64,000 bases of DNA, from the NCBI GenBank assembly GCA_022820995.1, contig JAJEEM010000045.1, forward strand, positions 1-64,000, read 5' to 3'. Shown piece after piece: positions 12,642 to 30,589 of the stretch. The first letter of the stretch is position 1. Each line of letters starts with the position of its first letter. The notes under the pieces are model-generated. The model did no database searches. It saw only the letters and a program-made list of their open reading frames with translations, and had not been told where the DNA came from. This DNA comes from Gemmatimonadota bacterium. Its GTDB lineage: Bacteria; Gemmatimonadota; Gemmatimonadetes; Palauibacterales; Palauibacteraceae. The translations under genes were made by a program, and so were the position numbers.

Positions 12642-12683
12642 ACGCCCAGGCATATGGTCCCGCGCTCTACGAGGAGGCGAGGA

Positions 12684-13046: not shown

Positions 13047-13064
13047 CCTCACCCGGAGTATTCC

Positions 13065-14276
13065 ATGTCCTTTACCGATCCGGAATGGGATCTTATCGAA
13101 CAGAGGCTGGATTCCGATCCCCGGCGATACGGTATGCCGGAGGGGGGTCGTGAGAAGTCTCTCGTGCTGGGGTCGTTCAACATCCGAAAGCTCGGAAAGG
13201 CGGTCGGCCGCGAGCGGGAGCTGGATTTCATGGCTCGGTTCTGCGCCTCGTGCGACCTCGTGGCAATCCAGGAGGTCCAGGACGATCTGTCCGGGCTCCG
13301 GCACCTCCGGCGGCGCACGGAAGTCCACGTCGCCGGACTGCCGGGCGAGTATGGGCTGGCGGTGTCCGACATTACCGGCAGCGTTCCGGGACGCAAGGGG
13401 ATGGCCGAGCGGTTGGCCTTTCTCTATAGGCGCCGCAGGATAACCCGGTTGGAATTGGCTTCGGATCTGACCTTTGATCGCACGGCGATCCTGAACGAGC
13501 TGGGCGAGCACCACGACGACTGGAGGACGCACTTCGAGGAACACCGTCGGAAGCTTGCCGACCACGCCCAGGGGCTCAGGAAGACCAAGCCTCGATTCGT
13601 ACCATCGAGGTTCCTTACGTTCGTCCGCAGCCCGCACGTGGTCGCCTTCGAGGCGCCTGCGGCAAACGACAAGCCACCGCTGACGTTCACGGCCATAAAC
13701 GTCCATCTGGTTTATGGCCGCATGAAGGAACGCGAACAGGAGTTCGATGCGCTACTCGATTGGCTGATCGGTCGGCTCAAGAGCGGTGGAAGGAGAATGG
13801 TGACACCCAGCTTTGTCCTGTTGGGTGACCTCAATCTCGATTTCGACAAGCCAAGGTTGGATCGAAAGCGGATCGACGATCGGATTCGTGGACTCAACAC
13901 GAGGCACTTCGGCGACACAGGCGAACGGCGGGTGTATTTCCCGTTCCTGGACCGGCATCCCGGGCATCGCAGGTTTCTGCGAACCAACGCGCGTGCCAGC
14001 CAGACCTACGATCACGTCGGTTTCTTCCGTGGCGCCGATGAGCAGCGGCTGCCCAACGACGAGTGGCTTGACGCCTGGACGCCCCGAAGGGAGCCGGACG
14101 ACTTCGAGTTCGGCGTGTTCGATTTCGCCGATCTGTTTTCCCAGACATTGAGAAACCGATCGTACCGTGGTTTGTCGGCTGCCGAGAAGAGGGATCTGGG
14201 CTCACGCTTCGAACACACCGTGAGTGATCACCTGCCGATCTGGGTCCGTATCCCGCGACCGGGATTTGCGCGCTGA
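13065..14276 (+). CDS. Endonuclease/exonuclease/phosphatase (EEP) fold protein
   Basis: A 403-aa DNase I-like protein without signal peptide. Catalytic signatures in order: the Asn motif LGSFNIRKLG (about 35-44), the Mg-binding Glu in LVAIQEVQDD (about 65), the His strand INVHLVYGR (about 210), the Asp-x-Asn motif LLGDLNLDF (about 250) and the terminal SDHLPIWV. It could hydrolyse DNA or a phosphoester. There is an insertion of charged residues (EHHDDWRTHFEEHRRKLADH) between core strands. Composition is noticeably AT-richer than typical genes here, suggesting transfer. Next to the three-TM gene; convergent with the DUF2235 gene. Confidence 0.85.
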   Translation: MSFTDPEWDLIEQRLDSDPRRYGMPEGGREKSLVLGSFNIRKLGKAVGRERELDFMARFCASCDLVAIQEVQDDLSGLRHLRRRTEVHVAGLPGEYGLAVSDITGSVPGRKGMAERLAFLYRRRRITRLELASDLTFDRTAILNELGEHHDDWRTHFEEHRRKLADHAQGLRKTKPRFVPSRFLTFVRSPHVVAFEAPAANDKPPLTFTAINVHLVYGRMKEREQEFDALLDWLIGRLKSGGRRMVTPSFVLLGDLNLDFDKPRLDRKRIDDRIRGLNTRHFGDTGERRVYFPFLDRHPGHRRFLRTNARASQTYDHVGFFRGADEQRLPNDEWLDAWTPRREPDDFEFGVFDFADLFSQTLRNRSYRGLSAAEKRDLGSRFEHTVSDHLPIWVRIPRPGFAR

Positions 14277-14328
14277 GCGGCGTCCCCGGACGACGCACGG
14301 CGGACGAGGCGCGACGGGAGATCTTTCA

Positions 14329-15303
14329 CTAATCCGGTACCACCACTGTATGCGCCTTGGGCAGGTTGCCAGGAGCGTACCCGAGCGATTGATCGTTCAT
14401 GCGCGACAGCGCGCTCTCGTGGATGTGCGCACCTTGCGAGATGGTTCGCGGGGTTGGCCTCCACAGCCGCCACAGGCCGGTCCTTGAAGGATGGATACAA
14501 CCTGCGGGATCGGGTGCGAGCGCGCCGCACCAGTCTCGTTTCAGACGTAAGCCTTGGTCTTTTGCCTTCAGCAGCATCCACTTCAACGCGATGTCGGAGA
14601 GGCTGGCGTCGCGATGCCAGCCACCGACGTCAGAGTGGCAGCCGGCGAACCAGACCTGTTGAATCGTCTGGTCGTCCGCCTTGGCATCTTCAGACCACAG
14701 ACTAACCGGAAACTTCTGGCGCTGTTCGTCAATGGAGACAGCTTGGTAGCCGTACTTGACATCGTGATTCAGCTTCGAATCGAAGAACTTACGGCCCCAG
14801 AACCAACCCATCGAGCCGACCGTGTCCCACACGCCAATGAAGTGTGGACGGCAGTCGTGGCTATACGTCCGCTTAAAGCCGGGTGCCATGCCGTGACGTC
14901 TTCGATCATTATATATGCGTGATGCGTACGGCACCAAGTTCCGACTTCCCTTCTGAAGCAAGCCGCAACGATTCAACATCCCTGCCAGCGCGCGTACGGT
15001 GAAGGCACCGCGGCTGAAGCCGAATAGAAACAGCTTGTCACCCGGCTCGTACCGCGCCATGAGGTATCGGTAGGCATCCTCGATATTCTGCTGGAGTCCG
15101 GCACCGAACGCCTTTCCCAGAGTGCGGCCCACCCGGCGCCCGAGTTGCCGACCGAGAAAGCTGAAGGTTCCGACACCTGGATCGTAGAAGGCAATCTGGT
15201 TCGCGTCGCGAACGATCGCTTCGTACAGCTTCACGACGTTGGTGTTGTTCGAGCCGTATTCATTACCGGTACCGTCACAGCAAATGACAACGTTCTTGGA
15301 CAT
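14329..15303 (-). CDS. DUF2235 alpha/beta-hydrolase (phospholipase-like effector family)
   Basis: A 324-aa protein starting at ATG 15303 behind AGAGGT. It begins with the DUF2235 strand NVVICCDGTGNEYGSNNTNV and contains the nucleophile elbow LFLFGFSRGAF with Ser97, then PHFIGVWDTVGSMG and the acid/His region WFAGCHSDVGGWH. DUF2235 proteins include type VI lipase effectors and many orphan hydrolases. No signal peptide is seen. It lies 37 bp downstream of the last LRR-metzincin gene on the same strand, so it is probably the distal gene of that operon. Composition is AT-richer than surroundings. Confidence 0.85.
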   Translation of the reverse strand: MSKNVVICCDGTGNEYGSNNTNVVKLYEAIVRDANQIAFYDPGVGTFSFLGRQLGRRVGRTLGKAFGAGLQQNIEDAYRYLMARYEPGDKLFLFGFSRGAFTVRALAGMLNRCGLLQKGSRNLVPYASRIYNDRRRHGMAPGFKRTYSHDCRPHFIGVWDTVGSMGWFWGRKFFDSKLNHDVKYGYQAVSIDEQRQKFPVSLWSEDAKADDQTIQQVWFAGCHSDVGGWHRDASLSDIALKWMLLKAKDQGLRLKRDWCGALAPDPAGCIHPSRTGLWRLWRPTPRTISQGAHIHESALSRMNDQSLGYAPGNLPKAHTVVVPD

Positions 15304-15340
15304 CAGTTGCACCTCTGTTGCTGTACCCTGCCGGAGCACC

Positions 15341-18300
15341 TCACCTCCGCCACGCCTCCGCGTCCGGGATTCCGCGGCTGATGAGCACCTCGAGCGGCGG
15401 ACTCCCCGCCGTCGCACGCGCCGCGGCCGTTCGAGCGAAGTCCTCGACCGGCATATCCGACAAGAAGCCGCGTACCTGCCCGGTCTGAGGATCGCGCAGG
15501 ATGGCCATCGGACGGGCGGTGCCGTCGTGCAGCGTGACCGACCCGCCGGGGCCGGACAGCGTGATGCCGGCCAACTCGTCGGCCCAACCAACCTGCACGG
15601 GCAGGGCGAACACGAAGCTCGCCGCTTGGCCCTCCGCGTCGGCCGTGGCCGGCATGTCGAAGGAGTACGAGAACAGCGGCGTCCCGTCGGCCGTAGCTCC
15701 CTCGATGGTGTATTCGGTCCCCGCCCGAGGAAGTGAGGGTACGGCGTCGACCACGAAGGCGGGGTCCAGATAGGGGATGCCGTCCGCGTCGCGTCCTCCC
15801 CACAGCAGGAGCGTTCGCGTGGGACCCGTGACCGCCGCCGCCATCTGGGCCTCTACGGCGAGGCGGTGATCGAGCGCCTTGTTGAAGAAGAAATCGCTGA
15901 TCCAGAGCCGATTGTTCCGACAATAGGACATGATGTCCGACGCATCCGGCGCCACCAATGCGCGCTGCTCGAAGTCATATCCCCAGGCCCCGATGTTTCC
16001 GTAAGCGTGCGGAAACCAGGGATCGACATAGTCGGGACTGCCGCACGGGGCGTGCCGCAACGAGAGGTTGTGCCCCAATTCGTGGGCCATCACAGGGGCG
16101 CTGCGGATCGACGCGCTGACAAACTGACCTCCAGCAACTCCGACTGCGGTAAAGGAGCTGGATCCGGGCCTTACTCTCCCATCCCACACGCCCATCCAGT
16201 ATCCCGAACCGCCCTCCATGAGGCGCAGCGCCGAAACCTGTCTCAAGATACCGAAGATGTCCGGCGTAGATACCATAACGGGATCGCGCGCCGCAACATC
16301 GAGGTCCGCTATCGGCAGCAGAGCCCGCACATCGGCGAGTAGCTCGTGACCATCGGGATCCGCCGCCATCGCGGAGACCTCATCCGCGGCAGACCAGTCT
16401 GGATTCTCTTCCAGGAGAAACGGGATCAAGGTCAGTTGGAAAGGCGGCAAGGGCCGCACATCGACGGCCACAAGGCCCGAATCGGGGATCCGCTTTGTGA
16501 CGCCGAGGCCGGGATCGAGCGTCGCCTCCGGGTCGATCTCGATCACCATCTCGAGGCCTGGCGCGACGAGCCAGGCTGGAATCTCCGCGTTGGCCGACAG
16601 GGCTAGGTCGCCCTCCAGGATCTCCGTGGGAATGGGCAACGTACTCGCGGGGACGTCGATGGAATGCTGTTCAGCGCCGTCAACGTAGAAGGTGGCCCGC
16701 ACGGCGGGCATCGTGGCGTCACTCTCTCTCGCCGCCGTTACGAAGACCCGAAGCAGTGCCGGCTCTCCCGCCAGTAGCGGGACGGGGTCGTCCCACGACT
16801 GTACGGCTTGGGTCAGGTACACTGCGGCCCCGCCTCCGCACCGCACCAAGCGGCGGTCGGGAATGGCGCGAAACCAAGCATCATAGTCAGAGCCGGGCGG
16901 CCGGCAGAGTCCGGTGCCTCCCGCCATGAGCCGTTCGAGCCGTCCGACGGACAGGAATTCCGAAGGCAGCGGGCCGGCCAGATCGGGGTTGCCCGCCAGG
17001 ATCAACGACTTGAGCAAGACGAGGTTGCCGAACGCCGGCGGAACGGGACCGGCCATTGCGTTGGACCGCAGGTCGAGACTCGTCAGGGCCGCGGCCTGTC
17101 CGAGTTCGGCGGGCAGCGGCCCCGAGAACTGATTGTGACCCAGATTCAGCGTGCCCAGGCTTGCGAGCCGGCCCAATTCGCCGGGAATCGGTCCCGCGAG
17201 TTGATTGTCCGCCAAATCCAGCGTCGCGAGGTCTGCGAGATCGCCCAACTCGGCGGGGAGCGACTCGGAGAGATTGTTGCTAGCCAACCGGAGTTCCCGC
17301 AGCCGCAGGAGGCCGCCCAGCGCAGAAGGGATCGGCCCCGTCAACTGGTTGCCCGACAGGTCCACCACGGCAAGACGGCCCGGCGCGGCAAGCTCTCGCG
17401 GAATGCCACCGGTCAAACCGTTGTCGGCGAGCCGAATGAACTCCAGCGCGCCGAGCTTGCCGAATCCTGACGGGATTGTACCGACAAACTGGTTCCGGCC
17501 GAGGTTGAGCACCTCGAGGCTGCGCAGATCGCCCAGCTCCGGCGGCAAGGTGCCGGACAGAAAGTTCCGCTCAAGTTCGAGTCGCTTGAGACTGTGCAAG
17601 TCACCGATCTCCACCGGAATTGGGCCGGTGAACTCATTCCAGCCCAGATCGAGCCATGTCAGGTGGGCGAGGTCGCCGAGTTGCGGAGGGATCGAGCCCG
17701 AAAGGTCATTATCAGAGAGTCTCATCGTGAGGAGGACCGGCAGCCGTCCAAGTTCCGGCGGGATCGAGCCCGTAAGCACGTTCCGACGCAGGACGAGGCT
17801 CGTCAGATCGGTGAGGCCGCCCAGTTCCGGCGGGATCGAGCCTGCAAGCTCGTTGACGGAAAGATCCAACTCCCTAAGTGCCGTAAGCTGCCCGAGTTCC
17901 GCCGGGAACGATCCGGACAGGCCGTATCCCCCGAGCCTGAGCCCGACGACCCGGCCCGCGGCATCGGTCTCCACGCCGTCCCACTGCGCCAACGGGGCAT
18001 CGGTCAGCCAGCCCGCGCTCTGCCGCCAGTTCCGGCCGTCCGTATTCCGGTACAGGTGTTCGAGAATCTCGCGATCCGTGAGGGGTGGACACTGCACCCC
18101 CGTTCCGGTGTGGTTCGGAATACCGTTCAGCCACGCCTGAAGACCGGGATCGTCCGCCACGCACACGGATGTGCCTTCGTAGTCGAACTCCACCAGCGCC
18201 AGTCCGGCGAGCGACAGGGGCAGTCGGCCAGTAAGCGCGTTGTCGCCGATCCTCAGTTGAGTCATTCCGGCGAGCAGCCCGATGGCTTCCGGAATGTGCC

Positions 18301-20308
18301 CCGACAGCCCGTTTCCGGTCAGATCGAGACCGGAGACCCGCCCGACCGAATCGGTCCCAACCCCGTGCCACCGGCCCAGATTCTCATCCTCGAGCCAGCC
18401 GTCGGATCGTACCCAGCCGGACCCGTTCAAGGCTTCGTAGAGGGTCCTCAGCGCCTGTTTGTCGATCTCGTCACAGAACGGAATGTCGACGGGGTACGCG
18501 ACGTTGCCGCGAGCTTCCACTTGCGCCGCCCACGCCCTGAACTCGTCCGTAGAGGGTAGGCATGCCCCGTCGGTCCTCCGGCAACCAAGCGACTCCAGGT
18601 TGTTCAACGCGGCAAAGCTCAGCGGGAACGAACCTTCCAGCTGGTTGCCGCTCAGTGTTATTGTCCGCAGTTCGTGGAGGTTCCCCAGTTCGGCCGGAAT
18701 CCCCCCCGTCAGGTTGTTCTCGCTTAGGTGTAGGGACCTCAGCTTGCCAAGGTTCCCGAACTCGGGAGGAATCGGACCCGTCAAGCTGTTGCCCCACAAG
18801 CTAAGGAGCTGTAGGCCTGTGAGGTTCCCGAGTGCAGCCGGAATCTGGCCTGTCAGGTTGTTGTCCCAAAGGGACAGCCAACGGAGCTTGGGCGAGTCTC
18901 CGAGTTCCGGCGGTATCGAGCCTGTGAACTCATTCCCGCCCAGTTCGAGAAATGCCAGGTTGGCAAGCTTGCCCAGTTCCGGGGGTATCGGGCCCTGCAA
19001 GTCATTCAGACGCAGCGCCAGCTCTCGAAGCTCAGGAAGTTCATTCAGCCAGGCGGGAATCGGACCGGTCAGACTGTTTTTGCTGAGTCGAAGCGACAGC
19101 AGGTTTTCGAGAGCACGAAGTTCTGGCGGAATCGTGCCCGTTAACTCGTTTTCTTCCAGGTCAAGATGCCTCAGATTCGTGAGCCCTCCCAATACCGGAG
19201 GGACCGGGCCGCTTAGAATGTTGTACCTGAGGACAAGCGTATCCAATTCAGTAAGCTGGCCTAGTTCGGGCGGGATTACGCCCCGCAGGCTATTCTGCCC
19301 GAGAGCAAGTGTCCGCAGGTTGGTGAGATCTCCGAGTTCGGGCGGAATCGTGCCGCTCAAAGCGTTCACCTGGAGGTCAAGCGACTCCAGGTTCGTCAAG
19401 TTCGCCAGTTCCGGCGGGATCGTCCCGGAAAGCCCGTGGCCAATCCATGTGCCGTCGCGCCGTCCGCTGAGATTAAGCCCTACGACTCGCCCGGAAGCGT
19501 CGGTCGATACGCCGTACCACTCGCCCAGAGGCGCGTCTGTGAGCCAGTTGTCGTTGTTGACCCAGTTCGGGCCGTCCGTCGCCTCGTAGAGTGCGACGAG
19601 CGCCGCGCGGTCGGGGTTGGCCGTGTGCGCCAGGATCGTCTCGGACACGTCGCCCGCGGTCGCCACGAGCGTCTGCTCGCCCACGGTCTTTCCGAGCGTC
19701 CACGAGGTCCGCGCGAGGCCCTCGCCGTCGGTGACGGCCTCTGCGGGGTCGACCGTCCCGTGCCCCTCGCCCGGCGTGAACACGACCGTGGCTCCGGCAA
19801 CGGGCGAACCCCGCGCGTCCGTCACGCGCACGACCACCGGCTCCGGCAAGGGCGTCTCGAGATCGGCCATCTGCCCGCCGCCGGACACCACATCCAGCGA
19901 CGCCGCCTCTTGCGCCACCTCGACGGCGGCCGTCGCGCTCAGGCTCTGAAAGATCGCCGTGACCGCCCCGGAGCCGTTGGCCACGGCGGTGGCCCTGCCG
20001 CCAGCGTCGACGGTGAACACGGCCTCGTCGCTGCTCGACCAGGTCACGGTTCCCGGGAACGCGGCGCCGCGCTGGTCCTTGACCGTCGCCCGAAACACGG
20101 CGGTCTCGCCCAGCGATGTCAGTGTCGCCGAGGAAGGCTCGACGGCGATGGAGGTCGGCCGGGCCGGCTCGGGCGGAGGGGGAGGCGGGGGCGCCACGGG
20201 GTCGTCGCCGCAGGCCGTGGCCAAAGTGCCGCCCGCAAGGCCCGTCAGGACGAGGAGCGCCCAGCGGCCGCGCTTCCCGCCGCCGATGAGTCCAAGACCT
20301 TCCTTCAT
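15341..20308 (-). CDS. Giant LRR lipoprotein with C-terminal metzincin protease, copy 1
   Basis: 1,655 aa. Signal peptide with lipobox LATAC (Cys33), Pro-rich linker, a Big_2-like Ig domain (about 50-130) and one Big_1-like domain (about 150-228). Then three LRR caps of the bacterial type (ALVALYEATDGPNW; ALRTLYEALNGSGW; ILEHLYRNTDGRNW), each followed by 24-residue plant-type LRRs (LSGTIPPELGDLTNLRTL). From about 1,170 a protease module begins (PLLAGEPALLRVFV), with zinc motif HELGHNLSLRH at about 1,409 and Met-turn DIMSYC. The metzincin Gly is Ser here. Start supported by AAGGAG upstream. Likely anchored in the outer membrane or periplasm, binding and cleaving proteins. Confidence 0.85.
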   Translation of the reverse strand: MKEGLGLIGGGKRGRWALLVLTGLAGGTLATACGDDPVAPPPPPPPEPARPTSIAVEPSSATLTSLGETAVFRATVKDQRGAAFPGTVTWSSSDEAVFTVDAGGRATAVANGSGAVTAIFQSLSATAAVEVAQEAASLDVVSGGGQMADLETPLPEPVVVRVTDARGSPVAGATVVFTPGEGHGTVDPAEAVTDGEGLARTSWTLGKTVGEQTLVATAGDVSETILAHTANPDRAALVALYEATDGPNWVNNDNWLTDAPLGEWYGVSTDASGRVVGLNLSGRRDGTWIGHGLSGTIPPELANLTNLESLDLQVNALSGTIPPELGDLTNLRTLALGQNSLRGVIPPELGQLTELDTLVLRYNILSGPVPPVLGGLTNLRHLDLEENELTGTIPPELRALENLLSLRLSKNSLTGPIPAWLNELPELRELALRLNDLQGPIPPELGKLANLAFLELGGNEFTGSIPPELGDSPKLRWLSLWDNNLTGQIPAALGNLTGLQLLSLWGNSLTGPIPPEFGNLGKLRSLHLSENNLTGGIPAELGNLHELRTITLSGNQLEGSFPLSFAALNNLESLGCRRTDGACLPSTDEFRAWAAQVEARGNVAYPVDIPFCDEIDKQALRTLYEALNGSGWVRSDGWLEDENLGRWHGVGTDSVGRVSGLDLTGNGLSGHIPEAIGLLAGMTQLRIGDNALTGRLPLSLAGLALVEFDYEGTSVCVADDPGLQAWLNGIPNHTGTGVQCPPLTDREILEHLYRNTDGRNWRQSAGWLTDAPLAQWDGVETDAAGRVVGLRLGGYGLSGSFPAELGQLTALRELDLSVNELAGSIPPELGGLTDLTSLVLRRNVLTGSIPPELGRLPVLLTMRLSDNDLSGSIPPQLGDLAHLTWLDLGWNEFTGPIPVEIGDLHSLKRLELERNFLSGTLPPELGDLRSLEVLNLGRNQFVGTIPSGFGKLGALEFIRLADNGLTGGIPRELAAPGRLAVVDLSGNQLTGPIPSALGGLLRLRELRLASNNLSESLPAELGDLADLATLDLADNQLAGPIPGELGRLASLGTLNLGHNQFSGPLPAELGQAAALTSLDLRSNAMAGPVPPAFGNLVLLKSLILAGNPDLAGPLPSEFLSVGRLERLMAGGTGLCRPPGSDYDAWFRAIPDRRLVRCGGGAAVYLTQAVQSWDDPVPLLAGEPALLRVFVTAARESDATMPAVRATFYVDGAEQHSIDVPASTLPIPTEILEGDLALSANAEIPAWLVAPGLEMVIEIDPEATLDPGLGVTKRIPDSGLVAVDVRPLPPFQLTLIPFLLEENPDWSAADEVSAMAADPDGHELLADVRALLPIADLDVAARDPVMVSTPDIFGILRQVSALRLMEGGSGYWMGVWDGRVRPGSSSFTAVGVAGGQFVSASIRSAPVMAHELGHNLSLRHAPCGSPDYVDPWFPHAYGNIGAWGYDFEQRALVAPDASDIMSYCRNNRLWISDFFFNKALDHRLAVEAQMAAAVTGPTRTLLLWGGRDADGIPYLDPAFVVDAVPSLPRAGTEYTIEGATADGTPLFSYSFDMPATADAEGQAASFVFALPVQVGWADELAGITLSGPGGSVTLHDGTARPMAILRDPQTGQVRGFLSDMPVEDFARTAAARATAGSPPLEVLISRGIPDAEAWRR

Positions 20309-20415
20309 CGCAATTCTCCTTCAGCCATCCTGTTCGGGTGCGTTCCGCTGCCGCGGGTCCCGTGCTGCAGGGACTGATCGCGATGCGCCGGGCACCGAAG
20401 CCGCGACGGGTGTCG

Positions 20416-23400
20416 TCAACGCCGCCACGCCTCCGCGTCCGGGATTCCGCTGCTGATGAGCACGTCGAGCGGTGGACTCCCCACCGTCGCACCCGCTGCG
20501 GCCGTTCGAGCGAAGTCCTCGACCTGCATATCCGACAGGAAGCCGCGTACCTGCCCGGTCTGCGGATCGCGCAGGATGGCCATCGGACGGTCGGTGCCGT
20601 TGTCCAGCGCGACCAACCCGCCGGGGCCGGACAGCGTGATGTTGGCAAGATCATCGGCCCAGCCCGCCTGCACGGGCAGGGCGAACACGAAGCTCGTCTC
20701 TTCGCCCTCGGCGTCTGCGGTGGCCGGCATGTCGAAGGAGTACGAGAACAGCGGCGTCCCGTCGGCGGTCGTTCCCTCGATCGTGTATTCGGTCCCCGCC
20801 GGAGGCAGTGCGGGTACGGCGTCGACCACGAAGGCGGGGTCCAGATAGGGGATGCCGACCGTGTCCCGTCCTCCCCACAGCAGGAGCGTCTGCGTGGGAC
20901 CCGCGACCGCCGCCGCCATCTGCGCATCGATCGAGAGGCGATGGCCGAGCGCCTTGTTGAAGTGATAGTCGCTGATCCAGTCTGGCGGCCCGCAGTAGGA
21001 CATCAAATCGGGTGTGACCGGATCCACCAGGATGCTTCGGGCGAAGTCGTACCCCCAGGCTCCAATGCGCCCCGTGGGAGACGGGAACCAAGGGTCGGGT
21101 GTGCCGGCGCCACCGCAGGGCGCGTGCCAGAGTCCCAGGTTGTGCCCCAGCTCGTGGGCCATCGTGGATGCGGCATGAGGCCGCGCGTAGCTAACGTGGC
21201 CGGGTAGCCGCGCCATCCCCGGGAACCAATGGAACCTCGCCCCGGGTTTTGTCGCAACCACTCCCAGCCAGTATCCCGATCCGCCCTCCATGAGGCGCAT
21301 CGCCTCAATCTGAGCCAACAACTCCGACGGATTCGAGTGAGACATCGACACGGGGTCGTGTGCCTTGATGGCCAGTCCCGCTATCGGTAGCAACCCGCGC
21401 ACTTCGCGGAACGACTCGTGCCCCCCGGCGGCGTCCTCCGCCATCTCGGTAACGGCCCGCGCGGCGGTCGAGTCCGCGTAGCCCTCCCACAGGAACGGGA
21501 TCAGAGTCAACTCGAACTCGGGGACGGCCCGCACATCGACGCCCATGCGGCCGGAAACGGGAATCCGCGTCGTAACCCCGAGCGCGGGATCCAGCGTGCC
21601 ATCCGGATCAACCTCAATCACCATTTCCAGGCCCGGCACGATAACCTCTGCCGGGATCTCGGCGTTTGCCGAGCGCGTAAGGTCCTCCTCCACCACCTGG
21701 GGGGGAATCGGATACGCGCCTCCGGCGATGCGCGCGCTATGCCGCTCGTCACCGTCCACGTAGAAAGTGACTTTGACATCCGGCATGGTCGCAGCGGTGC
21801 CGCCCCGGGTCGCCGTCACGAAGACGCGCAGCAACGCAGGCTCGCCCGCCAACAGCGGCACAGGATAATCCCGCGACTGCACCGTTTGGGTCAGGTAAAC
21901 CGCGAAACCCTCCCGGCAGCGTGCCAGCAGGCGGTCGGTTATGGCGCCGAACCACGCGTCGAAAGCCGCATCGTGCGGGAGGCATAGTCCTGTCCCGCCC
22001 GCCATGAACTGCTCAAGTTGGTTGAGTGCCCTCATGCCTGCGGGCAGCGGCCCGGCCAGATCGGGGTTGTTCGCGAGAACCAACGACTCCAGCAGTTTGA
22101 GGTTCGCGAACTCGGGCGGTATCGGGCCGGCCAGCGCGTTGGACCGCAGATCCAGACTTTGCAGATCAGCAGCTCCCGCAAGTGCCGCAGGCAGGGGTCC
22201 GGAGAGCCGGTTCTCGCCCAGATTCAGCCACGTCAGTCTCGAGAGACGACCCAGCTCCGGAGGAATCGGCCCCGTCAACGCGTTGTTCGACAGGTCCAAC
22301 TCCCACAGGGTTGCGAGGGCGCCGAATCGGGGAGGGATGAGGCCCGTCAACTGGTTGTCGCCAAGTCGCAAGCTTCTCACCGCGCCAAGATCGGCAAACT
22401 CCGCCGGAATAAAGCCCGTGAGTCGGTTCCGCGCGAGGTTGGCGAGTTCCAGGCGGCTCAAGCCGCCCAGAGCAGATGGAACGGGGCCCGAGAGGGAGTT
22501 CCCTGCAAGTGAAAGATAGGTCAGGTTCGCCAGGTCTCCGAGTTCCGGGGGGATCGAGCCCTGGAGCGCATTCCACCCGAGGCGGAGCGACTCCAGGCGA
22601 TCCAGCTTGCCCAGTTCTGGCGGCACCGAACCCACGAGCCGGTTCGCGCTCAGATTGAGAGACGTGAGTCTCGAAAGCTGCCCGAGTGACGAAGGGATGT
22701 TGCCGCTGAGTCTGTTGTTGTTCAGGTCGAGGTCTTCCAGGCGATCCAGATTTCCCAGTTCCAGCGGGATTGAACCCGACAATCTGTTCCTCGAAAGAAG
22801 TAATTCGCCGAGGTGTGACAACTGCGCGAGTTCCACCGGAATCGGGCCGGATAGGCCGTTGTCCCGAAGTCGCAACGCGACAACCCTTCCGGCGTCATCG
22901 GTCTCGACGCCATACCATGCCGCCAACGGTGTATCCGTTAGCCACCCTGCGCTCTGGTTCCAATGTTGGCCGCCCGTGTTCCGGTGCAGTAGTTCGAGAA
23001 TCTCGCGGTCCGTGAGCGGTGGGCACTCCACGCCCGTGCCGACATGTCGCGGGATACGGTTCAACCATTCCCGGAATCCGGTGTCGTCGACTACGCACAG
23101 TGACGTGCCACCGTAGTCGAACTCATCGAGCGCCAGGCTGGCGAGCGACAGCGGCAGTCGGCCGGACAGGGCGTTGTTCGCGATCCGCAGTTCCGTCAAG
23201 CCGGCGAGCTGCCCCAGCGCCGCCGGAAGATGTCCCGACAACCCGTTGGCGGTCAGATCGAGACCCGAGACTCTGCCTACGGAATCCGTCGCAACGCCTT
23301 GCCAGTCCGCCAAGGCCTCCTCTTCGAGCCAGCCGTCCGCCTCCGCCCACTTCTGTCCGCCCGCCGCATCGAACAGTTCTTCCAGAGCACGCCTGTCGAT

Positions 23401-25380
23401 CTCGTCGCACCAGGGAACATCCACATGAAAGCTGCCGGCGCTGCGAGCTTCGACCATCTGCTCCCATTCCCTGAAGTCCGCCGTCGCCGGCAGGCATACG
23501 CCGTCGGACGTGGCGCAACCAAAACTCCCCAGCGCGGTCAGCCGGAGAAAGCTGTGTGGAATGGCCCCCGTCAGCCGGTTCCCTCCCAAAGTCAGGTGAG
23601 TCAGTTTGGTGAGGCTGCCGAGCTCCGCGGGTATCGGACCGGTCAGATTGTTGTCGGACAGACTCAAGCTCGTCAGATTGCCAAGACTGGCCAGCTCCGG
23701 CGGGATCGAGCCCGACAGGTTGTTACCCCACAGAGACAGGCTCTCCAGATTGTCCAGGCTGGCCAGTTCCGGTGGAATTGGACCCGTCAGGTCGTTGGAT
23801 CCCAGAGCCAGATCCTGCAACTCCGTCAGGTTGGCTAGTTCCACAGGAATCCGGCCTGTCAACTCATTGACCACAAGCGATAGACGTCGCAGTCGGTGAA
23901 CGTTGCCCAGTTCAGCCGGGATTGCACCAGTCAGTTGATTGCGGTACAAGTCCAAGGTCTCCAATTCGCGGAGGTTGCCCAGTTCCGGAGGGATGCCACC
24001 AGTCAACTGATTCCTCTTCAGGATTAGTCCTCGCAACTTGGCGAGGCCCGCGAATTCGGACGGAATCTCTCCCGAGAGGTCGTTGTCGCTAAGGTCGAGC
24101 CCCGTCAGAAACGCGAGGCTGCCAAGCTCCGCGGGGATCGCGCCCCAAAGGAGGTTGAGGCTGAGCCTCAAGAGAGTCAGATTCGCGAGGTTTCCGAGGT
24201 CGGGCGGAATGGTGCCCAATAGTCCATTCTCGCGGAGCACCAGCCGGCTGACGCGCCCGGTCGCGTCGGTGTCGACACCGTACCAGTCCTCCAACGGGGC
24301 GTCGGTCAGCCAGTTCTCGCTATTGGTCCAGTTCGGTCCGTCCGTCGCACGGTAAAGGACCTCCAGCGCCGCGCGGTCGGGGTTGATCGTGTGCGCCAGG
24401 ATCGTCTCGGACACGTCGCCCGCGGTCGCCACGAGCGTCTGCTCGCCCACGGCCTTTCCGAGCGTCCAGGCTGTCCGCGCGAAACCCTCGCTGTCGGTGA
24501 CGGCCTCGGCGGGATCCACGGTGCCGTGTCCCTCGCCCGGCGTGAACACCACCGCGGCTCCCTCGACCGGCGCGCCTTCCGCGTCCACCGCCCGCACGAT
24601 CACGGAGTCGTCCAGCGCGGCGCCCAGATCGGCGGTCTGCCCGGCGCCCGACACGACCTCGATGTCGTGCACGATCTCCACGGCCGTGAGCCCCCGGGCC
24701 GCGACCTCGGCCGAGGGGCCGTCGGTGACCGACGCGGCCAGCGTCTGCGCGCCCGCGGCGTCTCCGAGCGTCCACAGGGTCCGCGCGAGCCCCGCGGTGT
24801 CGGTGACCGCCTCCGCGGGGTCGGCCGTTCCGTGCCCCTCGCCGGCGGCGAACACGACCGTGAGGCCCTCGACCGGCGAACCTCCCGCGTCCACCGCCTG
24901 CACGACGACCGGCTCCGGCAACACCGCGCCAGGCCGCGCCGCCTGCCCGTCGCCCGACACGGTCTCCAGCGACGCCGCCTCCTGCGCCACCTGGACGGCG
25001 GCCGTTGCGCTCAGACTCTGGAGCGTCGCGGTGACCGTCCCGGAGCCGTTGGCCACGGCGGTGGCCCTGCCGCCGGCGTCGACGGTGAACACGGCCTCAT
25101 CGCTGCTCGACCAGGTCACGGTTCCCGAGAACGCGGCGCCGCGCTGATCCTTGACGGTTGCCCGGAACACGGCGGTCTCGCCGAGAGACGTCAGCGTCGC
25201 CGAGGAAGGCTCCACGGCGATGGAAGTCGGCCGCGCCGGCTCCGGTGGCGGGGGAGGGGAGGGCGCCACGGCATCGTCACCGCAGGCCGTGGCCCAGGCG
25301 GCGCACGCAAGGCCCGCCGAGACGAGGAGTGTCCAGCGGCCCCGCTTCCTGCCGTCGATGGTTCTGGAACTTATTTTCAC
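20416..25380 (-). CDS. Giant LRR lipoprotein with C-terminal metzincin protease, copy 2
   Basis: 1,654 aa from GTG 25380, preceded by GGAGAACTGCT. Same architecture as copy 1: lipobox WATAC (Cys33), a Big_2-like domain, but two Big_1-like repeats (PGAVLPEPVVVQAVDAGG; DLGAALDDSVIVRAVDAEG). Three LRR blocks each begin with an LRR cap (ALEVLYRATDGPNW; ALEELFDAAGGQKW; ILELLHRNTGGQHW). The C-terminal protease has the complete metzincin motif HELGHNLGLWH at about 1,409 and Met-turn DLMSYC. The first ~300 and last ~130 residues are almost the same as copies 1 and 3, while the LRR core is not. Probably cotranscribed with copy 3 (55-bp spacer) and copy 1 (107-bp spacer). Confidence 0.85.
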   Translation of the reverse strand: MKISSRTIDGRKRGRWTLLVSAGLACAAWATACGDDAVAPSPPPPPEPARPTSIAVEPSSATLTSLGETAVFRATVKDQRGAAFSGTVTWSSSDEAVFTVDAGGRATAVANGSGTVTATLQSLSATAAVQVAQEAASLETVSGDGQAARPGAVLPEPVVVQAVDAGGSPVEGLTVVFAAGEGHGTADPAEAVTDTAGLARTLWTLGDAAGAQTLAASVTDGPSAEVAARGLTAVEIVHDIEVVSGAGQTADLGAALDDSVIVRAVDAEGAPVEGAAVVFTPGEGHGTVDPAEAVTDSEGFARTAWTLGKAVGEQTLVATAGDVSETILAHTINPDRAALEVLYRATDGPNWTNSENWLTDAPLEDWYGVDTDATGRVSRLVLRENGLLGTIPPDLGNLANLTLLRLSLNLLWGAIPAELGSLAFLTGLDLSDNDLSGEIPSEFAGLAKLRGLILKRNQLTGGIPPELGNLRELETLDLYRNQLTGAIPAELGNVHRLRRLSLVVNELTGRIPVELANLTELQDLALGSNDLTGPIPPELASLDNLESLSLWGNNLSGSIPPELASLGNLTSLSLSDNNLTGPIPAELGSLTKLTHLTLGGNRLTGAIPHSFLRLTALGSFGCATSDGVCLPATADFREWEQMVEARSAGSFHVDVPWCDEIDRRALEELFDAAGGQKWAEADGWLEEEALADWQGVATDSVGRVSGLDLTANGLSGHLPAALGQLAGLTELRIANNALSGRLPLSLASLALDEFDYGGTSLCVVDDTGFREWLNRIPRHVGTGVECPPLTDREILELLHRNTGGQHWNQSAGWLTDTPLAAWYGVETDDAGRVVALRLRDNGLSGPIPVELAQLSHLGELLLSRNRLSGSIPLELGNLDRLEDLDLNNNRLSGNIPSSLGQLSRLTSLNLSANRLVGSVPPELGKLDRLESLRLGWNALQGSIPPELGDLANLTYLSLAGNSLSGPVPSALGGLSRLELANLARNRLTGFIPAEFADLGAVRSLRLGDNQLTGLIPPRFGALATLWELDLSNNALTGPIPPELGRLSRLTWLNLGENRLSGPLPAALAGAADLQSLDLRSNALAGPIPPEFANLKLLESLVLANNPDLAGPLPAGMRALNQLEQFMAGGTGLCLPHDAAFDAWFGAITDRLLARCREGFAVYLTQTVQSRDYPVPLLAGEPALLRVFVTATRGGTAATMPDVKVTFYVDGDERHSARIAGGAYPIPPQVVEEDLTRSANAEIPAEVIVPGLEMVIEVDPDGTLDPALGVTTRIPVSGRMGVDVRAVPEFELTLIPFLWEGYADSTAARAVTEMAEDAAGGHESFREVRGLLPIAGLAIKAHDPVSMSHSNPSELLAQIEAMRLMEGGSGYWLGVVATKPGARFHWFPGMARLPGHVSYARPHAASTMAHELGHNLGLWHAPCGGAGTPDPWFPSPTGRIGAWGYDFARSILVDPVTPDLMSYCGPPDWISDYHFNKALGHRLSIDAQMAAAVAGPTQTLLLWGGRDTVGIPYLDPAFVVDAVPALPPAGTEYTIEGTTADGTPLFSYSFDMPATADAEGEETSFVFALPVQAGWADDLANITLSGPGGLVALDNGTDRPMAILRDPQTGQVRGFLSDMQVEDFARTAAAGATVGSPPLDVLISSGIPDAEAWRR

Positions 25381-25435
25381 AGCAGTTCTCCGTCAGTCAT
25401 CCTGTTCGAGTACCTTCCGCTCCTGCCGGAGCAAG

Positions 25436-28400
25436 TCACCTTCGCCACGCCTCCGCGTCCGGGATTCCGCGGCTGATAAGCACGTCGAGCGGTGGGGTCG
25501 CCGCGGTTGCACGCGCCGCGGCCATTCGAGCGAAGTCCTCGACCGGCACGTCCGACAGGAAGCCGCGTACCTGCCCGGTCTGCGGGTCGCGCAGGATGGC
25601 CATCGGACGGTCGGTGTCGTCGTCCAGCGCGACCGACCCGCCGGGGCCGGACAGGGTGATGTTGGCCAACTCGTCGGCCCAGCCGGTCTGCACGGGCAGC
25701 GCGAACACGAAGCTCGTTTCTTGGCCCTCGGCGTCTGCGGTGGCCGGCATGTCGAAGGAGTACGAGAACAGCGGCGTTCCGCCGGCGGTCGTTCCCTCGA
25801 TCGTGTATTCGGTCCCCGCCGGAGGAAGCGTTGGTGCGGCGTCAACGACGAAGGCGGGATCCACGTACGGCACGCCATCCGTGTCGAGCCCTCCCCACAA
25901 CAAAAGGGTTCGAGTGCGGTGTGCGACTGCTGCAGCCACGTTGCCATCCGCGGAGCCGAGACGGTGGTCGAGCGCTTTGTTGAAGGAGTAGTCGCTGATC
26001 CAGCTAGGGTCACGGCAGTAACTCATAACGTCGCGATACCACTCCTCCACTACGCCGCCGCCGCGGACCAGATCGTACTCCCCGGGAAAGTCGTAACCCA
26101 CGGCTCCGATGGATCCGTCCAGATACGGATACCAAGGATCCGGATTGGGAACGGCGCACGGCGCGTGTCCCAAGCTCATGTTGTGGCCGAGCTCGTGGGC
26201 GATTATGCTCCCAAACGGCGTTGAAGCGCTCGACCAGTAACCAAGCCTGGCGACTCCCCCGACGTCGGAGAAATCCGTCATCAGGCCCAGATAGTGGCCG
26301 CCCCTTCCTTCCAAGACCCGGATCGCCTCGGTTTCCCTTAGCACTGCGAAGCCGGAATTACTCGAACTCATCACCGGATCGTGAGCCGTCACATCGATAG
26401 CCGCTACGGGCAAAAGCGTAAGCGTTTGCTGAAGCAACTCATGGTCGTCCGGATCCGCCGCCATGTCCGCCGCAATCCCGATGACCGCCGAGTCTGGATC
26501 GGCGGTCCAGACGAAGGGGATGACTGTAAGGTCGAACAGGGGCATCTCCCGTACATCAACCGCAAGTCGCCCTTTGTGCGGGATCCGTTCCGTGACCCCC
26601 AGTGACGGGTCCAGGGTCCCGTCCGGGTCGATCTCGATTACCATTTCCAGTCCGGGCCGTACGACCTCGCTGGGAATCACGGCGTTGGCGGACCTCGACA
26701 GGTCGCTCTCATCGATCTCTTCGGGGATCGGGACTGATGTGCCGGGAATGTAGACCACGTGGGTCTCGGCGTCGGCACGGTAGAACCGTGCGCGGATTGG
26801 GGGCATGCCCGCGCCCGAACCGCGCGCTGCTGTCACGAAGACCCTCAGCAGCGCCTTATCGCCCGCAACCAGTGGCACCGGCACAACGCGGGACTGTACG
26901 GCTTGAGTGAGGTACGCCATCGAAGGGGCGCAGGACGCGATCTGAGCATCGGCAATGCCTTCGAGCCACGCTTGGAAGCTAGTGTCGTCGCGTGGCGCGC
27001 AAAGGTCTGTGCCGCGGGCGAGCATCGCGTCGATATTGCGGAGGTCGGTCAAGCTCGCCGGAAGAGCTCCGGTCATGTCGGTGTTGTTGGTAAGGTCCAA
27101 CTCGCTCAGGTTCGCCAACGTTGCGAGTTCCGGGGGGACGGATCCGGAAAGCTTGTTGATGCCCAGCCGAAGACCTCTCAATCCAGCGAGCCCGCCCAGC
27201 TCCGAGGGAATCGGGCCGGAGAAGTTGTTCCGCTCGAGAATCAGCCATTCCAAACTGGCGAGCGTACTCAGCTCCGGGGGGATCGGGCCGGAAAGATCGT
27301 TCCATGAGAGTTGAAGCGACTCGAGGGTTTGGAGACTCCGGAGTTCGGGCGGGATCGGGCCGCTGAGATCGTTGAACGCGAGGTCCAGCCGTTCAAGGTT
27401 GGCGAGTGCGCCCAACTCTGGGGGAATCGGGCCGGAAAGATCGTTCGCGGAGAGTCGAAGCGACTCGAGGTTTTGGAGACTGCGGAGTTCGGGCGGGATC
27501 GGGCCGCTGAGATCGTTGCCCGCGAGGTCCAGCCGTTCAAGGTTGGCGAGCGTGCCCAATTCCGGGGGAATCGGGCCTGAAAGATCGTTCCATGAGAGTT
27601 GAAGCGACTCGAGGTTTTGGAGACTGCGGAGTGCGGGCGGGACTGGGCCGCTGAGATTGTTGCCCGCGAGGTCCAGCCGTTCAAGGTTGGCGAGCGCGCC
27701 CAATCCGGGGGGGATCGGGCCGGAGAGCCGTTGCCCGCTTAGGTCCAGGCCCACCACCCGCCCGGAGCCGTCCGTCACTACGCCGTTCCATTCACCGAGC
27801 GGCGCGTCGGACAACCACTTGTCGCCGTTTGCCCACTTCGGCCCGCCAGTCTCGTGGTAGAGACCGGTGAGAATATCCCGTTCCGAGAGGGGAGCGCACC
27901 GGGCGCCTGTGCCCTCGTGCGACGGCACGCCGTTCAGCCACTGCTGGAACGAATTGTCCGCCGGGGCGCACACCTCCGTGCCGGCATAGTGCAACGTGGT
28001 TAGTGAAAGGTTCGCCAGCGAGGCTGGGAGACGGCCGGTGAGCGCGTTGTTGTCTCCGATCCGCAGTTCAGTCAATTCGGCCAGATGGCCCAAGCTCGTT
28101 GGCAGGTTTCCCGCCAAGTCATTGCCCTCAAGGTCGATCGCGGTGACCCGGCCGAGCGAGTCGGCGCGCACTCCATGCCACTCGCGCAGGGCCGATCCGC
28201 CAAGCCAACCTGCGGAGTTCCGCCAATCCGACCCGCCGGTCGCCTCGTGCAACGACTCGAGCACGGCCATGTCCAAATCGTTGCACCACGATCCCACAAA
28301 AGACTCAAGTCCGTCGATCCATTCCAAAAATGGTCGGGTGCCGGGTACGCAAAAGCCGTGGTCGCTCGTACACCCAAAACTCCTCAGCTTTGTCAGATCC

Positions 28401-30319
28401 AGCAACGCCGCCGGCGTTGGGCCGGTCATGCGAGTACCGTTAATTGACAATTCCTCCAGGTTGACAAGCTTGCCGAGTTCCGGCGGCAGCGAGCCCATAA
28501 AGTCGTTCGCCCCAAGTCCCAAGTGCCTTAGGTTTACGAGCTTACCTAGTTCCGGCGGAATCGGGCCGGTGAGCTCGTTTCGTACGAGATGTAGAAATGT
28601 CAAGTTGGTGAGCGTTCCCATCCACGGCGGAATCGGGCCCGCGAGATGGTTCCAAGAGAGGTCTAGGTGAAACAGGTCCGTCAGGTTCCGCACCTGCGTC
28701 GGGATCGGGCCCGTAAACTGGTTTACTCCCAAGTTGAGATTATTTAGGTGCTCCAGGTTCCCGAGCTCGGGCGGTATGGGACCCGACAGGCGGTTCCTGT
28801 ACAGGCTGAGGCGCCGCAGGTTGGTGAGATTTCCGAGTTCCGGCGGAATCGGGCCGGTCAGAAAGTTGTCTCGAAGCACCAACAGTCGCAAAGCCACGAG
28901 TTCGCCAAACTCCGGTGGGATCCGACCCGCCAAGTTATTATCGCCTAGGGCCAGCCACTCCAAGTTGCCGAGCCTGCCAAGCTCCGGCGGGATCGAACCG
29001 ACTAGATCGTTCAACTCGAGGTTAAGTGACTTCAAGTTCGCAAGATTGCCGAGCTCGGGCGGGACTGTGTCCGTTAGGGCGTTTATTCCGAGGTCAAGCA
29101 CCTCCAGGTTCGCGAGGTTCCCCAGTTCTGGCGGGATCGTCCCCGAGAGCCCATGAGGACGACGCGATCCATCTTCAATCCGTCCGCTAAGGTCAATCTG
29201 GACCACCCGTCCCGAAACGTCCGTCTCCACCCCATACCACTCTCCCAGCGGCGCGTCGGTGAGCCAGTTGGTGTTGTCGACCCAGTTCGGCCCGTCAGTC
29301 GCCTCGTAGAGCGCGACAAGCGCCGCGCGGTCGGGATTGACGGTGTGCGCCAGGATCGTTTCGGACACGTCGCCCACGACCGCCACGAGCGTCTGCTCAC
29401 CAACGGTCTTTCCGAGCGTCCACGCGGTCCGCGCGAGACCCTCGCTGTCGGTGAAGGCCTCCGCCGGATCGGCTGTTCCGTGCCCCTCGCCCGGCGTGAA
29501 CACCACCGCAGCCCCCTCGACTGCCGCTCCTTCCGCGTCCACCGCCCGCACGATCACGGAGTCGGCCAGCCCGGCGCCAAGGTCGGCGGTCTGGCCGGCG
29601 CCCGACACGACCTCGATCGCGTGAACGATCTCCACGGCCGTGAGCCCCCGGGCCGCGATCTCGGCCGAGGGGCCGGCCGCGACCGACGCGGCCAGCGTCT
29701 GTTGGCCCTCGGCGTCTCCGAGCGTCCACAGGGTCCGCGCCAGCCCCGCCGTGTCGGTGACGGCCTCGGCGGGGTCGGCCGTTCCGTGCCCCTCGCCGGC
29801 CGCGAACACGACCGTGACGCCCTCTACCGGCGAGCCGCCCGCGTCCACCGCCCGTACGACCACCGGCTCCGGCAACACCGCGCCGGGTCTGGCCGCCTGG
29901 CCGTCCCCCGACACGGTCTCCAGCGACGCCGCCTCCTGCGCCACCTGGACGGCGGCCGTTGCGCTCAGACTCTGGAGCGTCGCCGTGACCGTCCCCGAGC
30001 CGTTGGCCACGGCGGTGGCCCTGCCGCCGGCGTCGACGGTGAACACGGCCTCGTCGCTGCTGGACCACGTCACGGTCCCCGGGAACGCGGTGCCGCGCTG
30101 GTCCTTGACCGTCGCCCGGAACACGGCGGTCTCGCCGAGCGAGGTCAGGGTCGCCGAGGACGGCTCCACGGCGATGGAGGTCGGCCGGGCCGGCTCGGGC
30201 GGAGGGGGAGGGGAGGGCGCCACGGGGTCGTCGCCGCAGGCCGTGGCCAGGGCGCCGCCCGCCAGACCCGCGAAGGCAAGGATCATCACCCGACGGTAGC
30301 GCGCTCTCCGGTCCATCAT
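25436..30319 (-). CDS. Giant LRR lipoprotein with C-terminal metzincin protease, copy 3
   Basis: 1,627 aa, first gene of the triplet. I chose ATG 30319 because AGGAGG lies 8 nt upstream; an in-frame ATG at 30346 has a weaker site. Lipobox LATAC (Cys28), Big_2-like and two Big_1-like domains, then LRR caps ALVALYEATDGPNW, VLESLHEATGGSDW and ILTGLYHETGGPKW, each leading into LRR arrays. The third array holds very regular repeats (LSGPIPPELGALANLERLDL) encoded by near-identical 144-bp units. Protease motif HELGHNMSLGH near 1,375, with Ser at the usual Gly position, and Met-turn DVMSYC. Read leftward into copies 2 and 1. Confidence 0.85.
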   Translation of the reverse strand: MMDRRARYRRVMILAFAGLAGGALATACGDDPVAPSPPPPPEPARPTSIAVEPSSATLTSLGETAVFRATVKDQRGTAFPGTVTWSSSDEAVFTVDAGGRATAVANGSGTVTATLQSLSATAAVQVAQEAASLETVSGDGQAARPGAVLPEPVVVRAVDAGGSPVEGVTVVFAAGEGHGTADPAEAVTDTAGLARTLWTLGDAEGQQTLAASVAAGPSAEIAARGLTAVEIVHAIEVVSGAGQTADLGAGLADSVIVRAVDAEGAAVEGAAVVFTPGEGHGTADPAEAFTDSEGLARTAWTLGKTVGEQTLVAVVGDVSETILAHTVNPDRAALVALYEATDGPNWVDNTNWLTDAPLGEWYGVETDVSGRVVQIDLSGRIEDGSRRPHGLSGTIPPELGNLANLEVLDLGINALTDTVPPELGNLANLKSLNLELNDLVGSIPPELGRLGNLEWLALGDNNLAGRIPPEFGELVALRLLVLRDNFLTGPIPPELGNLTNLRRLSLYRNRLSGPIPPELGNLEHLNNLNLGVNQFTGPIPTQVRNLTDLFHLDLSWNHLAGPIPPWMGTLTNLTFLHLVRNELTGPIPPELGKLVNLRHLGLGANDFMGSLPPELGKLVNLEELSINGTRMTGPTPAALLDLTKLRSFGCTSDHGFCVPGTRPFLEWIDGLESFVGSWCNDLDMAVLESLHEATGGSDWRNSAGWLGGSALREWHGVRADSLGRVTAIDLEGNDLAGNLPTSLGHLAELTELRIGDNNALTGRLPASLANLSLTTLHYAGTEVCAPADNSFQQWLNGVPSHEGTGARCAPLSERDILTGLYHETGGPKWANGDKWLSDAPLGEWNGVVTDGSGRVVGLDLSGQRLSGPIPPGLGALANLERLDLAGNNLSGPVPPALRSLQNLESLQLSWNDLSGPIPPELGTLANLERLDLAGNDLSGPIPPELRSLQNLESLRLSANDLSGPIPPELGALANLERLDLAFNDLSGPIPPELRSLQTLESLQLSWNDLSGPIPPELSTLASLEWLILERNNFSGPIPSELGGLAGLRGLRLGINKLSGSVPPELATLANLSELDLTNNTDMTGALPASLTDLRNIDAMLARGTDLCAPRDDTSFQAWLEGIADAQIASCAPSMAYLTQAVQSRVVPVPLVAGDKALLRVFVTAARGSGAGMPPIRARFYRADAETHVVYIPGTSVPIPEEIDESDLSRSANAVIPSEVVRPGLEMVIEIDPDGTLDPSLGVTERIPHKGRLAVDVREMPLFDLTVIPFVWTADPDSAVIGIAADMAADPDDHELLQQTLTLLPVAAIDVTAHDPVMSSSNSGFAVLRETEAIRVLEGRGGHYLGLMTDFSDVGGVARLGYWSSASTPFGSIIAHELGHNMSLGHAPCAVPNPDPWYPYLDGSIGAVGYDFPGEYDLVRGGGVVEEWYRDVMSYCRDPSWISDYSFNKALDHRLGSADGNVAAAVAHRTRTLLLWGGLDTDGVPYVDPAFVVDAAPTLPPAGTEYTIEGTTAGGTPLFSYSFDMPATADAEGQETSFVFALPVQTGWADELANITLSGPGGSVALDDDTDRPMAILRDPQTGQVRGFLSDVPVEDFARMAAARATAATPPLDVLISRGIPDAEAWRR
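27310..27741 (-). repeat. Three tandem 144-bp units inside LRR gene copy 3
   Basis: Units at 27310-27453, 27454-27597 and 27598-27741 align base for base, with roughly a dozen differences between the first two (about 90% identity by eye). Each unit encodes two 24-residue LRRs. Other LRRs in the gene are similar only at protein level, so these arose by recent in-frame duplication. Confidence 0.85.
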
Positions 30320-30589
30320 CCCGTGATCCTCCTGTCTGCCGAGCATCGCCCATCCCTGTTTCGAGCCGTGTTGACTCCAAACGGTGCAAAATGCGATTTG
30401 TGGACGATACTCACTCTACGCTACGCGATATTTTGGGGACATACCACAGCGTGAGTGCATACCCAGACCGAGGTTCGTGGCAACCGTTGTCGGCGGCGCG
30501 CCCGGTCTCCACGTTGCAGGTCAGACCATGCCGCAGGTGGACCCGCTTCGGGCCACCGGCCGAATACCGCAGCCCTGCAGGGAGGGGTC

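Follow-up and report, generated by a model that had tools for sequence, protein, structure and literature searches.

Four groups of described proteins come closest to the locus analyzed here. Peptidase family M66 (PF10462; StcE-type), whose member StcE is a mucinase, weakly resembles its protease; the ectodomains of plant receptors such as FLS2, PEPR1 and GSO1 resemble its leucine-rich repeats (LRRs); Tle1-type lipase effectors belong to the same Pfam family as its hydrolase; and eukaryotic-like LRRs have been reported from sponge symbionts. An enrichment of LRR domains has been reported for Ircinia metagenome-assembled genomes (MAGs) (PMC9531527) and for MAGs associated with reef demosponges (PMC8163846), and such domains occur in Latescibacterota MAGs (PMC12993501); the portions of these three papers available to us count the LRRs by repeat class and discuss a role in host evasion or mimicry. 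Our window, i.e., the whole stretch of 64,000 nucleotides analyzed, covers positions 1–64,000 of contig C10 in a 3.72-Mb draft genome (78 contigs, 94.7% complete) of a Gemmatimonadota bacterium. It contains three consecutive genes, A, B and C, each encoding a lipoprotein that joins plant-type LRRs to a C-terminal metzincin protease, followed by a gene for a DUF2235 hydrolase.

The array proteins differ from M66 peptidases by an N-terminus with LRRs and a lipobox, and from the plant receptors in being bacterial lipoproteins with a protease and no kinase. In contrast to these protease-linked repeats, the LRR classes of sponge symbionts are described in texts whose available portions lack the words "peptidase" and "protease" (PMC9531527, PMC8163846) or "peptidase" and "metalloprotease" (PMC12993501). 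The original prediction, made from the sequence letters, knew of no described system with such an architecture, and we likewise found no description of an LRR-metzincin or LRR-M66 fusion in the open-licence literature of PubMed Central, with subscription papers and preprints outside the scope of the search. The LRR-metzincin architecture is real and widespread, and is undescribed within the literature searched. On balance, we think it somewhat more likely than not that the array genes belong to a large and apparently mobile family of surface proteases from sponge-associated bacteria, which would carry out LRR-guided proteolysis in the sponge.

Architecture of the tandem array

The array and the gene that follows it comprise:

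25436–30346, minus strand: LRR-metzincin lipoprotein A, 1636 aa, with lipobox, immunoglobulin (Ig)-like domains, three LRR blocks and metzincin module at 25439–26884
20416–25380, minus strand: LRR-metzincin lipoprotein B, 1654 aa, GTG start, same domain set, module at 20419–21879
15341–20308, minus strand: LRR-metzincin lipoprotein C, 1655 aa, same domain set, module at 15344–16801
14329–15303, minus strand: DUF2235/Tle1-like alpha/beta hydrolase, 324 aa, from MSKNV, PF09994

Open reading frames (ORFs), Pfam searches and motifs confirmed the domain set that had been proposed for the three tandem genes, and the four genes do read in one direction with spacers of 55 bp (A/B), 107 bp (B/C) and 37 bp (C/DUF2235). 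The start of A had been placed at 30319, which is a downstream ATG in frame; the ORF opens at 30346. The Ig-like Pfam domains Big_2 and Big_1 were found in each protein, together with the lipobox ATAC followed by GDD, in which the cysteine is followed by G and there is no Asp at +2. LRR_1 matched C, B and A at E-values of 3e-70, 6e-63 and 1e-52, respectively, so the match is not due to chance. Each protein has three LRR-cap motifs, and the middle LRR block is short, as judged by eye. When the three proteins were aligned, identity was 75–98% over the first 400 columns and 76–87% over the last 200, with 37–72% in the middle, i.e., in the LRR and catalytic parts. The spacers preceding B and C have similar 3' ends with a GGAG site, as expected from tandem duplication. 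No terminator-like site lies within the three spacers, the array region holds eight such sites against 10.8 in shuffled sequence, i.e., no excess, and no promoter-like site was found across the array region; a single transcript for the array and the DUF2235 gene is possible.

The protease module was compared across sets of frames spanning at least 380 query residues (relative counts and near-relative comparisons) or at least 440 (other sets). Each array protein carries one intact zinc motif (HELGHNLSLRH, HELGHNLGLWH or HELGHNMSLGH), and H240, E241, H244, H250 and M291 (module numbering) are kept in all 19 modules of the same genome. Among 79 aligned modules, the zinc site (three His and the Glu) is intact in 72 and the downstream Met is conserved in 76, while the usual Gly position of the metzincin motif is S in 42, G in 12 and N in 11, giving the M66-like pattern HExxHxx(S/G/N)xxH. 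Structure prediction, which had been suggested as a check, gave a metzincin fold: the AlphaFold model of the 486-residue module of C, built from the 79 aligned sequences, has a predicted local distance difference test score (pLDDT) of 92.3 and a predicted template modelling (TM) score of 0.91, and its best Foldseek match in the PDB is the ADAM-8 metzincin catalytic domain (E 7.9e-5, probability 1.00, TM on target 0.50). Among the best 50 of 624 Foldseek matches, the sole further one at E ≤ 0.001 was a poor match to an esterase (TM 0.16). Snake-venom metalloproteinases topped a profile search (E 0.0096). Peptidase_M66 was matched by 71 of the 79 modules at E ≤ 0.01 and reprolysin by up to 32; for the array proteins themselves, however, the M66 score is borderline in C (20.7 bits against a cut-off of 20.6), below the cut-off in B (18.9) and unreported in A at E ≤ 0.001. 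The profile search gave 22 matches at E ≤ 1; StcE was neither among them nor among the best 50 Foldseek matches. Since the M66 and reprolysin profiles are weak and StcE is unnamed, M66-like metzincin is the furthest assignment made; the module is confidently predicted to have a metzincin fold and zinc motif, and by its profiles would be distantly M66-like. Its C-terminal beta domain (residues 322–477; 49 of the 79 rows given, pLDDT 84.9) had no PDB match at E ≤ 0.001. C253 and C294 are conserved cysteines, which suggests that the protease acts outside the cell. The ratio of nonsynonymous to synonymous substitution rates (dN/dS) was 0.26 for the protease over eight pairs, which indicates purifying selection.

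The LRR blocks follow the 24-residue plant-type (PS) consensus LxxLxxLxLxxNxLxGxIPxxLGxL, with 16–18 counted repeats per array gene and 54 strict-consensus repeats across A, B and C. In a sequence comparison with the PDB, the LRR block of C best matched receptor kinases of plants, namely GSO1 (E 1.2e-144), PEPR1 and FLS2. Over the 54 repeats, entropy was 2.8–3.7 bits at the variable positions of the concave face and 1.4–2.4 at five convex positions; convex positions 21 and 23, near the repeat end, reached 3.1–3.2 bits. Variation at the concave positions would be recognition-like.

Distribution of the family and the array island

The genome itself contains 21 module matches, 19 of them full, over 13 contigs, and the other 18 full copies are 35–67% identical to the module of C. 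A scan of 84,980 species genomes yielded 73 loci elsewhere, and a scan of the phylum found the module at E ≤ 1e-10 in 130 of 298 genomes; because some five candidates were scored in each genome of the phylum scan, copy numbers from it are lower bounds. In that scan 12 of 13 genomes of the same genus, our own included, carried the module, and it was found in none of nine listed genomes of other genera in the family and none of five from another family of the order. G125, one of the nine, and G089, the genus member lacking the module, were negative even with all candidates scored. Counting fragments, three single-contig genomes hold 18, 11 and 8 module matches, and G201, G163, G060 and G046 hold 17, 13, 9 and 14. 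Of the 74 relatives in which 350 residues or more precede the module, 73 have at least three LRRs, as do 15 of 18 own copies; LRR and lipobox counts throughout are from regular expressions on open frames, some of which end at contig ends. The original prediction of LRRs and protease joined in a single lipoprotein, in an array of paralogues, is supported, and neighbouring same-strand copies recur elsewhere: of the 67 relative loci whose module is full, 8 have them, one (L090) as overlapping frames.

Submitter labels of the loci include Gemmatimonadota, Latescibacterota, Acidobacteriota, Opitutales, Defluviicoccus and Rhodothermales; some labels, for example "Gammaproteobacteria", may be erroneous, and stray contigs can end up in a bin. 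In a quick tree of the 79 modules, nine of the ten Latescibacterota rows formed one clade and the remaining labels were interspersed, and A, B, C and the locus L041 formed one starred clade. The module has likely spread between phyla by lateral transfer, to judge from these sequences. Six relatives carry the module with no LRR, four in G019 and two in G004, and the protease would therefore be older than the fusion; it probably predates it. In G019 (L239–L242), a single-contig genome of 4,636,964 bp from the same class, three of the four LRR-less relatives have repeated GLPAG...GPNGFSR-type units upstream, as seen by eye. Another single-contig genome, G070 (L245, L246, L247), has two LRR-rich carriers without HExxH by regular expression, plus three adjacent LRR-less copies with the motif.

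The array itself lies on an insertion:

12463–30579, no strand assigned: genomic island of about 18.1 kb with the array inside; on either side, sequence collinear with that of relatives lacking the island

Blastn comparison, with 20 kb read beside the TonB-receptor gene at each locus, showed that none of the 12 same-genus syntenic loci has the island; these 12 come from 16 genus relatives, and in the four left out, TonB identity is 54–60%. At all 12 empty sites the flank alignments end 13–37 bp apart, with junction-adjacent segments 82–94% identical; the flanks are nearly joined, so 12463–30579 is an insertion relative to those genomes. Junction sequences were obtained for five of the 12. The fraction of G+C is 0.650 in the island against 0.707 and 0.689 in the flanks, and 0.585 in the DUF2235 gene. 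Neither direct nor inverted repeats were found when 12300–13100 and 30300–30800 were each searched within themselves, Pfam identified no integrase among the six island genes, and the contig might in principle be chimeric. The strain-specificity that had been raised as a counter-argument therefore divides in two: the architecture occurs at 73 other loci and in 130 of the 298 phylum genomes, and only the array island is confined to this strain among the syntenic loci. Compared with most of the 12 loci, the window has another, smaller insertion at 9748–11915, which contains a gene for an AAA_21 (AbiEii-like) ATPase (10521–11747); the locus looks like an insertion hotspot.

Copies come and go between near relatives. 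No module in G201, G163, G060 or G046 is more than 58% identical to that of an array gene, whereas of the 16 remaining own copies, 10 pair by reciprocal best match, at 79–98%, with a copy in at least one of these four. Related genomes hold about 8–19 divergent copies, and some near relatives have a given copy while others are without it. Judged from these alignments, the array is a three-gene tandem that the strain gained on the 18-kb island.

A putative LRR-guided surface protease

We hold with moderate confidence that these proteins act in surface-tethered, LRR-guided proteolysis in the sponge. Through its lipid anchor the protein would sit on the outer membrane and face outward, its LRR arc would bind a particular partner, and the fixed protease would cut this partner or its cargo, with the DUF2235 gene and the other small genes presumably travelling along as cargo. 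In a sponge symbiont the likeliest partners would be extracellular (mesohyl) glycoproteins or surface receptors of the host, and with such partners the set would be a guided surface-protease repertoire for feeding, attachment or avoiding uptake.

The 22 loci named with the jk18x prefix speak for the sponge habitat; several other observations weigh against this reading. The name prefixes of the 73 loci are jk18x (22), RHO (22), SB06 (9), p16x (6) and others (14); RHO, SB06, p16x and the other prefixes are probably mostly those of sponge projects, and sponge origin is documented for the 22 jk18x loci alone. The jk18x names are those of MAGs from Caribbean Ircinia sponges, and jk18x7bins.13, named in the available portion of that paper, is our locus L069 (PMC9531527). 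Among frames with an uncut 5' end, the lipobox was recognized in 37 of 65 from relatives and in 11 of 17 from the own genome, and anchoring may therefore not extend to the whole family. In addition, orthologues are not hypervariable as far as the aligned sequences go: in 21 orthologue pairs from near relatives, identity was 0.73–0.97 in the N-terminal part and 0.79–0.98 in the protease. The dN/dS of the concave face was raised, at 0.92; once one pair was dropped it fell to 0.58 against 0.51 for the convex face (p 0.62). Diversifying selection on the concave LRR face, apparent when ten pairs were pooled (L119 used three times), was rejected, the signal being driven by that one pair; after dropping it, the concave face is still above the protease module (p 0.011). 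Length differences of 24 and 48 residues, i.e., one and two repeats, occur between orthologues, and many others are not repeat multiples. On these data the family changes as genes are gained and lost and as lengths shift, without hypermutation.

The protease is also not universal or always intact. At least one zinc His or Glu is lost in seven of the 79 modules, with the rest retained, so some copies must work without proteolysis. The locus L071 (1474–11443), a tandem array of three LRR-proteases, has degenerate zinc sites in all three (QTIGV..., QGVGG..., QQVGH...), which suggests a non-catalytic duty. The genome itself also encodes LRR proteins without this protease (L130 15857–19192, L131 6748–8553 and L132 5413–7893), one of which ends in PD40/TolB-like repeats by eye. 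These points are what one would expect if the proteins were adhesins in which the protease serves as a self-release or structural domain; however, the zinc site is kept in most modules and in every own copy, and the protease is under purifying selection, and we give this explanation very little credence.

Nutritional degradation is a further explanation, according to which the LRR blocks are sticky scaffolds and the paralogues broaden the digestion of mesohyl glycoproteins and mucus-like matter without choice of target. The relation of most modules to the family of the mucinase StcE, weak as it is, would fit this, as would the want of a firm signal of diversifying selection in orthologues and an uptake-type TonB-dependent receptor gene (32242–35214) 1.7 kb from the island. 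That receptor gene, however, is present in 17 of 17 genus genomes, own included, with or without the island; StcE itself was named neither by the profile search at E ≤ 1 nor in the best 50 of the 624 fold matches; and 16–18 plant-receptor-type repeats per gene would be costly for stickiness alone. We regard nutrition without target choice as rather unlikely, and return to LRR-guided proteolysis as the reading we prefer.

Island cargo and the wider repertoire

Two further genes of the island lie beyond the DUF2235 gene:

13065–14276, plus strand: endonuclease/exonuclease/phosphatase (EEP)-family protein, 403 aa; PF03372 at 26.5 bits against a cut-off of 24.5
12684–13046, plus strand: small membrane protein, 120 aa, hydrophobic stretches seen by eye; ends 18 bp before the 13065 gene

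The DUF2235 protein matches PF09994 (now "T6SS Tle1-like catalytic") at 261 bits, and by eye it has a GFSRG motif and no signal peptide. This likeness to Tle1-type lipase effectors is set against a genome without VipA (PF05591) of the type VI secretion system (T6SS), the one component searched, for which an E. coli control was positive and the own genome, at the completeness given above, had no match. The original prediction had joined the hydrolase to the array, and a dedicated operon, in which the LRR-proteases open or mark a target and DUF2235 is the co-expressed effector, would agree with the common strand, the 37-bp spacer and the lack of a terminator-like site between them. PF09994 occurs in two of the 17 genus genomes, and both keep a link to LRR-proteases: in G046 a DUF2235 protein, 78% identical, follows a 136-aa frame that holds a relic of the LRR-protease C-terminus, the lone further case for the link. 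Another lipase gene, of the Lipase_3 family, follows an LRR-protease in G149/G298. Against such an operon, DUF2235 stands beside LRR-proteases in none of 93 other loci (four of them, L130–L133, hold no module; at least 1.2 kb of downstream sequence was present for 87 of the 96 modules outside the window), and it was not found in 3.1 kb beside L041, the closest relative. In G078, a DUF2235 gene and one for the small membrane protein are 5.9 kb apart, and the 19.9 kb read contain no module, while modules occur elsewhere in that genome. The absence of a signal peptide contrasts with the lipobox on the proteases, and VipA is lacking. As a conserved partner DUF2235 was thus rejected as a rule and kept as a lineage-specific neighbour; a dedicated operon appears improbable to us, and DUF2235 is taken as probable co-travelling island cargo.

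The EEP-family protein was found in one of 17 genus genomes, and at E ≤ 0.1 it matched a single PDB entry, DNase gamma (E 0.016). The small membrane protein has no Pfam family above cut-off and occurs in 11 of 395 phylum genomes from three genera, including three of 17 in the genus (G298 among them). Its gene adjoins an LRR-protease in L041; in G149/G298 the Lipase_3 gene sits between the two; and in another five genomes it stands ahead of a gene for an LCAT-like hydrolase, where the stretch read holds no module (the assignment is by Pfam in two genomes and by 86–88% identity in the others, one spanning residues 73–442 only). No module was found in 12.8–19.9 kb around it in eight other genomes, and the small membrane protein is not specific to LRR-proteases. 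When downstream neighbours of 150 protease genes were surveyed (143 with more than 1.5 kb), the inspected clusters were mostly antisense frames, LRR-proteases and orthologous loci of near relatives; the small membrane protein was the sole recurrent neighbour noticed at unrelated places. As a separate observation, it recurs beside unrelated lipase-type hydrolases: LCAT-like in the five genomes, Lipase_3 in G149/G298, and the EEP-family and DUF2235 proteins in the window (coordinates 12684–13046 in the window, 10113–11438 in L264 and 8588–9697 in L252). A hydrolase/membrane-protein cassette is possible from this recurrence, and DUF2235 may belong to such cargo rather than to the proteases.

The hydrolase and the nuclease-like gene beside the array, the island location and the gene-level turnover would also suit weapons against other sponge bacteria, i.e., contact-dependent antagonism or predation in which the LRRs select the victim. 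The VipA search, however, was negative, PADLOC gave no match for the four of six island proteins run, and other secretion systems and toxin repeats were outside these searches; C253 and C294 also point to an extracellular protease. Such a role seems to us very improbable. The PADLOC result likewise lent no support to the immunity reading of the original prediction, and an anti-phage defence role was rejected for the four proteins run. Carriage by phage was rejected as well, since 600 pattern matches from viral contigs were compared with the module alignment and none was confirmed.

A broader reading, which we consider doubtful, is that in sponge-dwelling bacteria the family forms a laterally shared repertoire system that crosses phyla, in which swappable plant-receptor-like LRR arrays would steer a constant metzincin to chosen host or neighbour proteins. 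Each genome would then hold a set of its own, about 8–19 specificities that come and go on islands, and lipase-type genes and the small membrane protein would accompany some copies. If true, bacteria would have a counterpart of a receptor repertoire with proteolysis as its output. As the module is confidently predicted and mostly intact, its activity and substrate are directly testable in a laboratory host. Among the matches listed, 15 of 18 LRR-rich genes of this genome are fused to the protease, and guided surface proteolysis may therefore underlie part of the symbiosis.

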